64,000 bases of DNA. It comes from Myxococcales bacterium (lineage in GTDB: Bacteria; Myxococcota_A; UBA9160; UBA4427). Below are positions 5,188 through 15,201 of this stretch, in pieces. Every line of letters starts with the position of its first letter. Position 1 is the stretch's first letter. The DNA lies in assembly GCA_012960035.1 (NCBI GenBank), contig DUBZ01000070.1:163102-227101 (forward strand). The letters run 5' to 3'. Both the position numbers and the translations under genes were made by a program. The notes beneath the pieces are model-generated. The model did no database searches. It was not told the DNA's origin and saw only the letters and a program-made list of their open reading frames with translations.

Positions 5188-8100
5188 CTAGCGAAAATGT
5201 CGACCGGGAGGCAATTGTCCACGCGTAAGCGCCGTGCGTTGCTCGGTTTCATGGGCGGCTTTCGATGTCAGCGCAGCAACGTGGTTGGCCTTCACGTGGA
5301 TCACCCCCTGCGCGTTTTGCAGCGGCCCCGAAATTTCGATGATCGCACTTGCAGAGAGAGGCACACGGAAGCGGCGGAACATGTCCGGGGTCAAGATTGC
5401 GTTCGAGGTGCCGGTTTCGTCTTCCAAGGTTAAGAAGGTGAAGCCCTTTGCCGTGCTCGGGTGCTGGCGCACGATCACATGTCCCGCCGTGCGGACAAAA
5501 CGTCCGTCGGGCACCTTGCGCAGTTCCACCGCCGAAAGCACACCGCGCTTGCGCAAGCCTTCGCGCAAATAGGCGAGCAGTTGGGGGCCGGTGGTGAGGC
5601 CCGAAAGACGGTAGTCGGCAAGGGTGCGTTCGATGGGGGACATCTCGGGCAGAGGGGACGAAGTGCGTTTGCGCATCGCGCGCTTTCCGCGACCGCTTTG
5701 TCCGCGCGCTTCCGGAGGGAGGCCGGCAAAGAGCGAGCGCGGGTCGCGTTCAAGGGCCGCCACTTGCCAGAGTGCGGCACGGCGTTCTTCGGCCCCCGGT
5801 GCGCCCGGCAAGTTTGCAAGGGCACCGAGCTCGGCGAGTGCGGTGACTTCGTCTTGTTTGAGTATGACTCGTTTGGTGAGGTCGGGCATGCCGTGGAAGG
5901 GGGCGACCGATCGTTCGAGTGCGATCGCTTCCCCTGCTTTCTTCGAAAGGCCACCGACGTAACGCAAGCCGACGCGCACCGCGGGGCCGGTGTATCCGTT
6001 CGCCTCGACTCCGGGCTCCATCGTGCACAACCATTCAGAAGCAGCGACGTCCAAGTCGCGCACTTCGACCCCATGTCGTTGGGCATCTTTGACCAACGTG
6101 GCGGGGTTGTAGAAGCCAAGCGGGTAACTGTTCAAAAGCCCGGCGAGGAACGCTGCCGGGTGATGCCGTTTCAAGTAAGCCGACGCATAAGCAATCAACG
6201 CAAACGAAGCCGAATGGGATTCGGGAAACCCGTAAAGCGCAAAGGCCGAGATCTGATGCACGATCTCGTCTCGGGCTTCGGCGCTGACCCCACGCTCGGC
6301 CATGCCGGAGCGCAAGCGCGCTTCGATTTGCACCATCTTTTCTTCCGAGCGCTTGAACCCCATCGCGCGGCGCAGCTCTTCGGCTTCCCCGCCGCTGAAA
6401 CCCGCCGCGATCATCGCGATACGAAGGATCTGTTCTTGAAACAGAGGCACGCCGAGGGTGCGTTCGAGGACGGGCACGAGTGATGGATGGGGGTAAGTGA
6501 CAGGTTGTCGACCCGCCCGGCGTTCGAGGTAGGGGTTCACCATCTGGCCCACGATGGGGCCGGGGCGAATCAGCGCGATCTCGACGACGAGGTCGTAGAA
6601 GCAGCGGGGCTTCAAGCGTGGGAGCGTCGCCATCTGAGCGCGACTTTCGATCTGGAACACCCCGATGGTGTCTGCCGCGCACATCATCGCGTAGGTGTCG
6701 GGGTCGTCCGGGGGGAGCTGCGCGAGGTCGACCACTTTGCCTTCGTGCTTTTCGATCAGGTCAGTGGTGATTTCAAGCGCGGCCAACATGCCGAGCCCGA
6801 GCAGGTCGATCTTGATGATGCCCATCTCCGCGCAGTCGTCTTTGTCCCACTGCACGATGTGACGGTTTTCCATCGACGCGGGCTCAATCGGAACCACTTC
6901 GTCGAGGTGTCCAGCCGCGATCACAACGCCACCACTGTGCTGCCCGAGGTGTCGAGGTAACCCGCGAATCTGTTCAACGAGACCGAGCAACTTTTGAATG
7001 CGCGGTGCAGTCGGATCGACGCCGGCTTGCTTGAGCGTGGTTTCGAGTGGGTCGTGTTCGTCTCTGTGGTCGAGGCTCGCGATCAACTTGGCGAGGCGGT
7101 CGATCGTGTCGGGCCCCATGCCCAAGACCTTGCCCATCTCCCGCACCGCAAGCCTCGAGCGGTAAGTGATGACGTTGGCCGTCATCGCCGCACCGCGTTC
7201 GCCGTACTTATTGAAGACGTACTGAATGACGGCTTCGCGCTTGTCGCCGGAGGGCAAGTCGAGGTCGATGTCCGGCCATTCGCCGCGCTCTTCCGAAAGG
7301 AAGCGCTCGAACAAGAGCTTCATCCCAATGGGGTCGACGGCAGTGATGGCGAGGGAATAACAGACGGCACTGTTCGCAGCAGAACCCCGGCCTTGCACCA
7401 GGATGTTCTGGCTTTTCGCAAAACAGCTGATGTCGTGGACGATCAGGAAGTAACCCGCGAGCCCAAGGTTCGCGATGATGCCAAGCTCGTGTTCGAGTTG
7501 TTTGCGCACGTTGCCGGGCAGGGGCGAGCCGTAACGGCTGCGGGCGCCTTCGTAGCTGAGCCTGCGAAGGGCGTCGTCTTGGCTTTCGCCGACTTGAAGG
7601 GGATAGGTGGGGAAGTGGTATTCGAGCACGTCCATCCCGAATGAGCAGCGCTCGGCGATCATGCGGCTTGCGTAGATCCAGTCGGGGCGGTCGGCAAAGC
7701 GCTTCGCCACTTCGTGCCGTGCTTTCAAATAACGCTCGCCATTGCGGAGCAGCTTTGTGCCCGCGTAGTCGAGGGAGGTTTTCGCGTAGAGACATGTCAA
7801 TGCGTCGAGCAGGTTTCGTTCTTGGGCCCGAGCCGCGCGGACATCCCCCGTTGCCACGATGGGGACGCCCTGGCTTTCGGCCATTGCGACGGCGCGGCGC
7901 GTGGCGCGCTCGTGGTCGCGGTCGAGAAAACGCGAAACGTCGACCCACAAGCGCGTGTTTTCTTTCCGCGCTCTTTGGGCTGCGTTTGTTCCCGAAGCAA
8001 AGACCGAAAGACTTCGGTCGAGAAACGTGGGGTCGAGGCTCGCGTCTCCCCGCGCAATGGCGGTGAGCCCCTCGGCATATTCTTCGAGTTCATCGAACGT

Positions 8101-8547
8101 GACGAAGGGCGCGGTCAGTGCTCGGGCAATGTTTGGTTTGTCTCGACGTCTTCTCTTTTGCCCGATCGTCAAAAGCCTAGAAAGATTGCGCCAACCTTTG
8201 GGCGACTCGACGAGGAGCAAGAGTTCGCCAAGGATCGGCGTTGATTCACCGGTGGCGCGCAAGCGAACTTCGGCGCCATGAATTGCCCGCACTCCGTTGG
8301 CCGCGCAGGCGCGATGGAAACGAGGGCTTGCATAGACGCCGTCACGATCGGCGAGGGCAAGAGCGGGGTATTCGAGTTCGGCCGCGCGTTCGGCGAGCGC
8401 TTCGGGGAGCGACACGCCTTCGAGGAAGCAGAACGCGCTGCGGGCGCGCAGTTCGACGTATTGCTGGGCCATGTCTGCGGGCATGTCGCTTCGCAGACGG
8501 TTTCGGGTACGTGGGACGCGGCTGTGCTTGGGCATGCTGGGGGGCAT
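5188..8547 (-). CDS. dnaE2: Error-prone DNA polymerase DnaE2 (C-family, alpha-subunit-like)
   Basis: PHP domain (YVELRARSAFCFLEGVSLPEALAERAAELEYPALALADRDGVYG-like), VQGRGSAANSAVCY, PDIDLDLPSGDKREAVIQYVFNKYG. Start moved to ATG 8547 (MPPSMPKHS...); ATG 8484 (MPADMAQQ) is also possible. Confidence 0.95.
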   Translation of the reverse strand: MPPSMPKHSRVPRTRNRLRSDMPADMAQQYVELRARSAFCFLEGVSLPEALAERAAELEYPALALADRDGVYASPRFHRACAANGVRAIHGAEVRLRATGESTPILGELLLLVESPKGWRNLSRLLTIGQKRRRRDKPNIARALTAPFVTFDELEEYAEGLTAIARGDASLDPTFLDRSLSVFASGTNAAQRARKENTRLWVDVSRFLDRDHERATRRAVAMAESQGVPIVATGDVRAARAQERNLLDALTCLYAKTSLDYAGTKLLRNGERYLKARHEVAKRFADRPDWIYASRMIAERCSFGMDVLEYHFPTYPLQVGESQDDALRRLSYEGARSRYGSPLPGNVRKQLEHELGIIANLGLAGYFLIVHDISCFAKSQNILVQGRGSAANSAVCYSLAITAVDPIGMKLLFERFLSEERGEWPDIDLDLPSGDKREAVIQYVFNKYGERGAAMTANVITYRSRLAVREMGKVLGMGPDTIDRLAKLIASLDHRDEHDPLETTLKQAGVDPTAPRIQKLLGLVEQIRGLPRHLGQHSGGVVIAAGHLDEVVPIEPASMENRHIVQWDKDDCAEMGIIKIDLLGLGMLAALEITTDLIEKHEGKVVDLAQLPPDDPDTYAMMCAADTIGVFQIESRAQMATLPRLKPRCFYDLVVEIALIRPGPIVGQMVNPYLERRAGRQPVTYPHPSLVPVLERTLGVPLFQEQILRIAMIAAGFSGGEAEELRRAMGFKRSEEKMVQIEARLRSGMAERGVSAEARDEIVHQISAFALYGFPESHSASFALIAYASAYLKRHHPAAFLAGLLNSYPLGFYNPATLVKDAQRHGVEVRDLDVAASEWLCTMEPGVEANGYTGPAVRVGLRYVGGLSKKAGEAIALERSVAPFHGMPDLTKRVILKQDEVTALAELGALANLPGAPGAEERRAALWQVAALERDPRSLFAGLPPEARGQSGRGKRAMRKRTSSPLPEMSPIERTLADYRLSGLTTGPQLLAYLREGLRKRGVLSAVELRKVPDGRFVRTAGHVIVRQHPSTAKGFTFLTLEDETGTSNAILTPDMFRRFRVPLSASAIIEISGPLQNAQGVIHVKANHVAALTSKAAHETEQRTALTRGQLPPGRHFR

Positions 8548-8553
8548 GGCGCG

Positions 8554-8582
8554 ACTTTCGCTTTGTTTTCGCGTCTGGTCAA
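8554..8582 (-). promoter_or_regulatory. Putative promoter TTGACC-N17-GAAAGT upstream of dnaE2
   Basis: TTGACCAGACGCGAAAACAAAGCGAAAGT ends 6 nt before ATG 8547; near-identical copy upstream of imuA. Confidence 0.6.
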
Positions 8583-12493: not shown

Positions 12494-14119
12494 TCAGTCA
12501 TAAATAGCGTCGACCTGCCAATTTCGCTGGGTCCAGTCAAAGCAAAGGCGAAGGATCGTGCCGTCGCTGACTTGGACGTCGAAATGGTCGAGGGCAAAGC
12601 GTCCTTCTTGAGACCACCATCGTCCGGTGGTGCGCCATGGCCCAGCCACGTTGACGATGTGCCCACAAGCCACTGCACTGCGGATGTTGGAAGGGTGGCC
12701 GTGGTGAAGTTTCACTTCGGCATGCACCGGGGGGCGTAGTGCCCGAACCACGAGTGGAGACCCGCCAAGGCCTACGTCCCCGGCTGACTTCGGCCCGAGC
12801 GTGCTGCTTGGCTGCGAACTCTTTGGAGCGGCAGACGTGTCACTCGAAAACGGTTTGAGTTCGAACGCACATGGATGATTGTCGTTGAGCACCGCGGGTG
12901 AGCCGACCTGACCTGGGCCGCAAAGAGATTCGAGTTCGGCGAGGGTGCGGTCCGTCTCGGCCGGGTCGGGCCCGGGCGTAATGAACAAGTCGAGTTGATC
13001 GCGACGAGGGCAGGTGCCCAAGGTGCTCAAGGCAATGCCTTCGACCGGCGCTTCGGGAGGTGTTGCTTCGAGCGTTTGAACCACGAGGCGCAACAGCACT
13101 CGGGGGTCGCGGGTAGGCGCCGCGATGCCAATGCGCCGATGGTCACGTCCGCCTTCGCAAAGGTTCAAGCTGAGATCGATAGGGCCACTCGCGAGCCCGC
13201 GCAGTGTCAAGCGTTCGGTGAGTCGCGAAAGCATGCCGCGCAACACGAAGGCGAGCGGTTCGAGCAATTGGATCGGGTAGTCGAGGTCGATCGCTTCGCG
13301 AAGGCTCGCGTCTCGGGGTTCGGGTAAGGGCGTTTCCACTTCGCGGCCTTCGGCGCGAGCGACGAGTTGCAAGACGTCGACGCCCAAGCGTTCGGCCAGC
13401 GCGCGCCGAGGGAGTGCGAGCAAGTCGCGCACGTTGTGGACGCCAAAGCGGGTGAGCTTTTGAGCGAGGTCGTCGCCGGGGTCGAGTAGATCAATGGGGA
13501 GTGGGGCGAGGGTTTTTGCTTCTTCGTCCGGAGAGAGGATGCAGCATTCGGGTTCGCCACCGTGTTCTTCCGTGGCGCGACCCGTGCTTTCGCGGGGAGG
13601 TTTGATGGCCGCGCGTGCGAGTTTCGGGACCGCCAACTTGCGCGCGACGATCTTTGCAATGCTGCGCGACGAAGCGATTGCGATGCTTCCCGGAAGCCCC
13701 GCCCGTTCGGCCCGTGCCGCAAGGGCCGCTGCAAAGCCCGCTTCGGAGCGGTACAGGGAATCGACCCCCGTGGCGTCAAGGAATACCGCCGCCTCGCAAA
13801 TGAAAATGCCGGGAGAACGAGGCGCCAAAGCGGCGCGCGGCGAAAGAGACAGCGCGACATCGAGCAACGCGTCCCGCGTGGTGCGTTCGAGCACAGGGGA
13901 GGCCACACGGACGATCAACTGGGAAGACAGGCTGCGGGCGTGGCTCACGCTGCAGGGGGGGCGAAGGCCTAGGGCCGCGGCTTCCGGGGAGCACGCAAGA
14001 ATTTCTGCGCGGGCGTCGGGGCCTGTGGCAATCGCGACCGGCTTGCCCAAAAGATCGGGACGCGCTCGGAGTTCGGCACACAAGGGCAGGTTGGGGATGA
14101 GGAGACAAGCAATGCGCAT
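12494..14119 (-). CDS. imuB: ImuB-type inactive Y-family polymerase homologue
   Basis: MRIACLLIPNLPLCAELRARPDLLGKPVAIATG...; Y-family-like fold but lacking the DinB DMDxFF/SLDE catalytic signature; neighbour of imuA; C-terminus FALDHFDVQVSDGTILRLCFDWTQRNWQVDAIYD. Confidence 0.9.
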   Translation of the reverse strand: MRIACLLIPNLPLCAELRARPDLLGKPVAIATGPDARAEILACSPEAAALGLRPPCSVSHARSLSSQLIVRVASPVLERTTRDALLDVALSLSPRAALAPRSPGIFICEAAVFLDATGVDSLYRSEAGFAAALAARAERAGLPGSIAIASSRSIAKIVARKLAVPKLARAAIKPPRESTGRATEEHGGEPECCILSPDEEAKTLAPLPIDLLDPGDDLAQKLTRFGVHNVRDLLALPRRALAERLGVDVLQLVARAEGREVETPLPEPRDASLREAIDLDYPIQLLEPLAFVLRGMLSRLTERLTLRGLASGPIDLSLNLCEGGRDHRRIGIAAPTRDPRVLLRLVVQTLEATPPEAPVEGIALSTLGTCPRRDQLDLFITPGPDPAETDRTLAELESLCGPGQVGSPAVLNDNHPCAFELKPFSSDTSAAPKSSQPSSTLGPKSAGDVGLGGSPLVVRALRPPVHAEVKLHHGHPSNIRSAVACGHIVNVAGPWRTTGRWWSQEGRFALDHFDVQVSDGTILRLCFDWTQRNWQVDAIYD

Positions 14120-14203: not shown

Positions 14204-15166
14204 CTATGCCGCGTTCGAAGTCACCTTCAACTTCACTTTTATTCCCGTGCTGGCCGCGGGGGGGTTGGACTGAACAGACGGACCAGGCTCTGCCCGTCGT
14301 CGGGTGAGCATGGGACGTGTTTCAAGCCCTTCGAGCAGGACGGGGGTTCCGGTGAAGTGTGCGAGTGCGGGTTGCATTTCGAGCGCCAACGCGGCCCGCG
14401 AGCCGGCGAGCCGTTCGCCTGAAAGCAACAAGAGAGTGTTCTGCTTTGCGGCGACGAGCCTTGTGAGTCGCAGCCAGACTGCGTGGGAAATGGTTTCTGG
14501 CTTGGTTTTGTTTCGCTTACCCACCCCCGACTGGGTCTGCCCCGTGAGGTCCAACACCGCGAGGGCGAAGCCTTCGGTTTCGAGAATGCGCTCGGTACAG
14601 CGCAGGGCGGCGAGGGTCTTGGGGGCGCGCGCCCAAAGCACGCGGTCGAGCACCACCCCCGCGGCCTCGGCCGAAGGCGGGTCGAATGCGTCGGCGAGAT
14701 CCACCCAGGCCACATAGGCGCCGGCGCGGGTCAGTTCGGCGAGCAGGCCAAAGGCCACGCTGGTGCGTCCCGAAGAAAGCGGGCCTGAGACCTCGCTCAA
14801 ACAACCCGCCGGGAAGCCACCTCCAAGTACGGCGTCGACCTCTTTGAGCCCGGTGGCATGACGCGTGCCGTGAGGCTGTTGCCCAGCGTGATCCGGCAGC
14901 GGCGCGCCGGGTTTGATTGATGGCGCGCCGGGTTTGAGCGGCGCGCCGGGTTTGATTGATGGTGCGCCGGGTTTTAGGTCTGAACCCGGACGCGAAGGGG
15001 TTTCCATGTTGTTCGAGGGAGAGGGCTCGGGGTACTTGGAGTGGCTCTGGGAGGAATGAGTAGGCCGGACCGTTCTGAGGAGTTCGGGGCCGAGTTCCTG
15101 GTGAAGCTCGTTGAGCAGGGCTTCAACTCGATTTTGTGCGGGGTAGGGGGACGATGCAGAAGGCAT
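14204..15166 (-). CDS. imuA: ImuA/RecA-like mutasome protein
   Basis: TGLKEVDAVLGGGFPAGCLSEVSGPLSSGRTSVAFGLLAELTRAGAYVAWVDLADAFDPPSAEAAGV; adjacent to imuB. Start placed at ATG 15166 (MPSASSPYPAQNRVEALL) because the longer ORF (15214) overlaps the promoter-like element. Confidence 0.88.
   Translation of the reverse strand: MPSASSPYPAQNRVEALLNELHQELGPELLRTVRPTHSSQSHSKYPEPSPSNNMETPSRPGSDLKPGAPSIKPGAPLKPGAPSIKPGAPLPDHAGQQPHGTRHATGLKEVDAVLGGGFPAGCLSEVSGPLSSGRTSVAFGLLAELTRAGAYVAWVDLADAFDPPSAEAAGVVLDRVLWARAPKTLAALRCTERILETEGFALAVLDLTGQTQSGVGKRNKTKPETISHAVWLRLTRLVAAKQNTLLLLSGERLAGSRAALALEMQPALAHFTGTPVLLEGLETRPMLTRRRAEPGPSVQSNPPAASTGIKVKLKVTSNAA
14903..14977. repeat. Four GGCGCGCCGGGTTT-type repeats (18/21-bp period) inside imuA
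   Basis: Encodes KPGAPSI KPGAPL KPGAPSI KPGAPL linker. Confidence 0.9.
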
Positions 15167-15172
15167 TTTTAC

Positions 15173-15201
15173 ACTTTCGTCTTTCTTTCGCCTCGGGTCA
15201 A
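15173..15201 (-). promoter_or_regulatory. Putative promoter TTGACC-N17-GAAAGT upstream of imuA
   Basis: TTGACCCGAGGCGAAAGAAAGACGAAAGT ends 6 nt before ATG 15166; matches the dnaE2 element. Confidence 0.6.

Follow-up and report, generated by a model that had tools for sequence, protein, structure and literature searches.

A tandem element before dnaE2 and imuA is probably the LexA operator of an uncultured Myxococcota class

The dnaE2 and imuA genes in the window (the whole stretch of 64,000 nucleotides that was analysed) are preceded by a common element, and both copies are very probably SOS promoters under LexA repression through a class-specific tandem operator; we put the probability of this reading at about 92%. 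Computation established where the site lies, that it is conserved, that lexA promoters contain it and that it co-varies with the LexA recognition helix. A preliminary description of this DNA had proposed that the mutasome promoters have a damage-responsive control element in common, with a GCGAAA direct repeat as the operator. Sequence comparison supports both proposals.

The shared element and its conservation

The features of the window that are relevant to this analysis are as follows (all on the minus strand).

5188..8547, minus strand: dnaE2, error-prone DNA polymerase, predicted leaderless (NF004225, 1189 bits; ATG 8547-8545)
8554..8573, minus strand: predicted LexA operator of dnaE2, CGCGAAAACAAAGCGAAAGT (direct repeat, period 11; 26.7 bits)
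8554..8559, minus strand: inferred -10 GAAAGT of dnaE2, within the operator (17-bp spacing; conserved -11A and -7T)
8577..8582, minus strand: -35 element TTGACC of the dnaE2 promoter (from sequence)
12494..14119, minus strand: imuB, Y-family polymerase-like (PF00817/PF11799)
14204..15166, minus strand: imuA, predicted leaderless (NF033429 ImuA, 43.6 bits, below the curated cut-off, the assignment being backed by context and orthologs; RecA fold; ATG 15166-15164)
15173..15192, minus strand: predicted LexA operator of imuA-imuB, GGCGAAAGAAAGACGAAAGT (32.4 bits)
15173..15178, minus strand: inferred -10 GAAAGT of imuA, within the operator (same basis as for dnaE2)
15196..15201, minus strand: -35 element TTGACC of the imuA promoter (from sequence)

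Upstream of dnaE2, positions 8582-8554 read TTGACCAGACGCGAAAACAAAGCGAAAGT, followed by CGCGCC and the start codon; upstream of imuA, positions 15201-15173 read TTGACCCGAGGCGAAAGAAAGACGAAAGT, followed by GTAAAA and the start codon. The two near-identical 29-mers reported previously were thus found again at these positions; TTGACC and GAAAGT are indeed separated by a 17-nt spacer, and 6 nt lie between the element and ATG. GCGAAA and CGAAAGT, however, are 6 nt apart at both sites and not 7 nt as had been stated, which is why the N7 search pattern proposed earlier returned no match. The common pattern is therefore TTGACC-N4-GCGAAA-N6-CGAAAGT-N6-ATG.

The N6 pattern proved rare in the genome of this organism (5.5 Mb in 162 contigs, about 97% complete): the dnaE2 and imuA sites were its only two exact matches. 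Allowing up to three mismatches added two unrelated sites, and a reversed-pattern control added one. A matrix built from 52 sites of other genomes gave 26.7 bits for the dnaE2 site and 32.4 bits for the imuA site, and the next best score in the whole 64 kb was 10.9 bits. A second matrix, trained solely on lexA promoters, gave 32.1 and 23.4 bits for the two operators, respectively. The element is therefore far above chance expectation. The 52-site matrix scan showed no further box in the window, either before dinB or elsewhere.

A search for dnaE2 and imuA orthologs covered 60 relatives at the genus, family and order level; for each gene, 30 loci were read. The element was present at the gene start in almost every locus examined in the order, a phylogenetic footprint before each of the two genes in about 30 genomes. 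The profile of the 52 sites, which excludes the genome under study, is TTGAC-N4-GGCGAA-n-A-n-AA-R-R-CGAAA-v-T, and the operator core within it is GGCGAAnAnAARRCGAAAvT, a direct repeat with an 11-bp period. The invariant columns among these sites were C, G, A and A in the second half-site and G, A and A in the first. TTGAC occupied the -35 place in 27 of 54 sites, with near variants in most of the rest.

imuA and imuB are 84 bp apart on the same strand and presumably form one operon, and dnaE2 lies 6.6 kb from imuA. The interior of imuA (14898-14974) contains a tandem repeat of 21/39 bp encoding repeated KPGAPSI/KPGAPL in an N-terminal linker, and most relatives align only past this region.

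The box in lexA promoters and the LexA lineage

The genome has a single canonical lexA, located on another contig. Its product scored 206.6 bits against TIGR00498 (over the cut-off) and has a winged helix-turn-helix plus an S24 domain, an Ala-Gly cleavage site (VAAG) and a Ser/Lys dyad aligned to E. coli LexA. The promoter of this gene also carries the box: it reads TTGACTTTCGCCACATTTTCGTG, the reverse complement of CACGAAAATGTGGCGAAAGTCAA. We examined 79 named lexA loci, mostly from Myxococcota or Deltaproteobacteria metagenome-assembled genomes, with a matrix trained on dnaE2 and imuA sites of other genomes. A box of at least 10 bits was present in 63 of the 79 lexA promoters (0/395 shuffles and 0/79 intragenic controls), and the other 16 scored below 10 bits. 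Conversely, a matrix built on 22 lexA sites recovered 29 of 30 dnaE2 loci and 29 of 30 imuA loci, the imuA half being the weaker one since its windows were drawn around already-found sites; the controls gave 0/30 intragenic and 10/600 shuffled hits. At lexA the box lies in the orientation opposite to that at dnaE2 and imuA and overlaps the -35 element (TTGACT), which argues for an operator rather than a core promoter. A second box was often found about 30 bp beyond the first.

Box type co-varies with the LexA recognition helix and is gone where the helix changes. In the class studied here the helix is SSVATVHKH; a different order of the class has the same helix, and all three of its lexA promoters carried the box (19.0, 20.4 and 19.2 bits). 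In other Myxococcota classes the helix is STNGVNDHLK and many lexA promoters contain GTTCAGT; a box of at least 10 bits was detected in none of the lexA promoters scored from these classes. The SSVATVHKH helix and the box type of the class studied here were also found in Acidobacteriota (Polarisedimenticola and Mor1), Krumholzibacteriia and one Gemmatimonadales genome. In Gemmatimonadaceae the helix is NSLATVHEH and the lexA promoters carry TTCGG-N6-TTCGG, a direct repeat with a period of 11, and repeats of this type occurred at a similar place in four Gemmatimonadota lexA promoters (L200, L202, L203 and L204). This repeat is likely another direct-repeat LexA box, paired with a different helix.

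In the LexA tree, the class grouped with these lineages, and a branch with 98% SH-aLRT support separated it from other Myxococcota. Because the sequences in the tree were selected by similarity to the LexA of this organism, replacement of lexA in the class relative to other Myxococcota is suggested only. A broader scenario, to which we give slightly less than even odds, would be a distinct LexA lineage, with the SSVATVHKH helix and a head-to-tail CGAA-N7-CGAA operator, in this class, Acidobacteriota (Polarisedimenticola and Mor1 relatives), Krumholzibacteriota and part of Gemmatimonadota. The class would then stand apart from the other sampled Myxococcota classes as if lexA had been exchanged along with all of its operators, and the mutasome genes of the class would be transcribed as leaderless SOS mRNAs.

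Promoter architecture, regulation and alternative explanations

Self-similarity of the operator was 0.94 for the direct repeat at offset 11 versus 0.20 for the best inverted arrangement, which points to two LexA half-sites arranged head to tail. We infer that LexA of this class binds the tandem sequence through two CGAA(A/C) half-sites that face the same way and are offset by 11 bp, roughly a turn of the helix. In the dnaE2 and imuA promoters, the operator would fill most of the 17-bp spacer and run through the putative -10, so that bound LexA should exclude RNA polymerase; at lexA it spans the -35 element. RecA-stimulated self-cleavage is an established property of the LexA family, and the LexA of this organism has the residues that it requires. 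Upon DNA damage, such cleavage would lift repression, and dnaE2 and imuAB would be induced together despite their separation, error-prone repair genes having been kept off until then. That LexA binds and represses these promoters, that they are induced and where their transcription starts are all deduced from the sequence.

Of 54 sites, 35 have the start codon exactly 6 nt past the box and 48 have it 5-8 nt past, and the frame was always open. The inferred -10 (GAAAGT or GAAAAT) retains -11A and -7T (columns 15 and 19), and GAAAGT agrees with TATAAT at just three of six positions; a generic sigma-70 scan found nothing at threshold, the inferred -10 included. As the -10 ends 6 nt before ATG, transcription is expected to start on the start codon, 7 nt past the -10, and the dnaE2 and imuA mRNAs are therefore predicted to be leaderless. 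The two proteins (window positions 8547-8536 and 15166-15155) and their relatives mostly begin with Met-Pro-Pro or Met-Pro-Ser (ATG CCC CCC), right at the predicted transcription start, which is perhaps a feature of leaderless translation.

A sequence-model search of the genome with the operator ranked dnaE2 and imuA at the top, followed by a UvrD/PcrA-like helicase, a PA0069-family radical SAM gene, lexA and an Lhr-type helicase, with the weaker hits overlapping the chance level. The box was thus found before mutagenesis and repair genes and was rare elsewhere in the genome. recA is a usual LexA target; its promoters had no box in 20 genomes (this one, on contig C124, and 19 relatives), so RecA seems to be outside the SOS regulon. 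Two further species of the genus have a pair of strong boxes, spaced 28 bp apart, about 100 bp upstream of a tRNA-Lys(TTT) gene (L250:3055-3102 and L249:3142-3189). An endonuclease/exonuclease-like gene precedes the boxes, and an integrase-like gene comes next in L249.

The preliminary description favored a dedicated damage-responsive promoter class, perhaps activated in the manner of PafBC. In such a scheme, RNA polymerase would be recruited by a PafBC-like activator, or by some other LexA-independent damage regulator, bound to the GCGAAA repeat, and lexA would be just one of the targets. PafBC is an activator of another phylum, and its RecA-NDp promoter is likewise a damage-related promoter of repair genes. 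The site directly adjoining the -35 element, the weak -10 and the lack of a box at recA would fit activation. However, at lexA the box changes orientation and position and overlaps -35 or -10, as fits a repressor; it is found in lexA promoters across the order and class and co-varies with the LexA recognition helix between classes; and TTGACC with GAAAGT differs from the TTGTC...TAnnnT motif quoted for PafBC. We therefore regard an activator of this kind as improbable. Even less probable is that the element is merely a core promoter (-35, A-rich spacer and -10) shared for a particular sigma factor. TTGAC and the distance to the start codon are conserved as in many core promoters, but the invariant columns fall in the repeat units (CGAA...CGAA) rather than the hexamers, few genes in the genome have the 20-mer, and its sequence is kept when reversed and shifted in lexA promoters; the flipped lexA sites led us to reject a core promoter alone. 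Two sites in one window would by themselves be thin evidence, but the footprint refutes both a coincidental resemblance and a recently duplicated promoter, with independent conservation before both genes at 60 orthologous loci and flanks that differ between dnaE2 and imuA outside the box.

Comparison with known LexA boxes

If it is the LexA operator, as proposed here, the element allows the damage regulon of a large uncultured Myxococcota class to be predicted from its SOS box. It also appears to add a direct-repeat LexA box outside Alphaproteobacteria; as this box is tied to a recognisable recognition helix, switching of LexA between palindromic and tandem operators becomes testable. We found no published description of this box, or of its unusual head-to-tail form in this class, in a search that did not cover most subscription journals. 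The element had been noted earlier as none of the canonical LexA boxes, which holds for those considered there, yet in this lineage it very probably serves as the LexA box.

In Alphaproteobacteria (Caulobacter) the LexA box is the direct repeat GTTC-N7-GTTC (PMC12700426, PMC9578287, PMC8565304), and the Caulobacter imuAB-dnaE2 cassette is SOS-induced (PMC8072749). Compared by box rather than by LexA protein, the present element is similar in being a direct repeat with an 11-bp period. It differs in its core, CGAA(A/C)-N6-CGAAA, and does not have GAAC in both half-sites (9/52 in the first and 0/52 in the second). The Gram-positive box, CGAAC-N4-GTTCG (PMC9578287), has the CGAA half-site in common, whereas its repeat is inverted and ours is direct. 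Within the same phylum, Myxococcus xanthus LexA recognizes CTRHAMRYBYGTTCAGS, an imperfect palindrome with GTTCAG, and dnaE2 is among the genes that it represses (PMC9705874). The present element resembles this box as a putative LexA operator with dnaE2 as a target; unlike it, the element has no GTTCAG and little inverted symmetry, and the LexA proteins of other Myxococcota, with STNGVNDHLK-type helices, occupy a separate branch of the tree. The box of this class could not have been guessed from M. xanthus. Direct-repeat LexA boxes are already known, and judged by its sequence the present box corresponds in full to neither the alphaproteobacterial nor the M. xanthus one.
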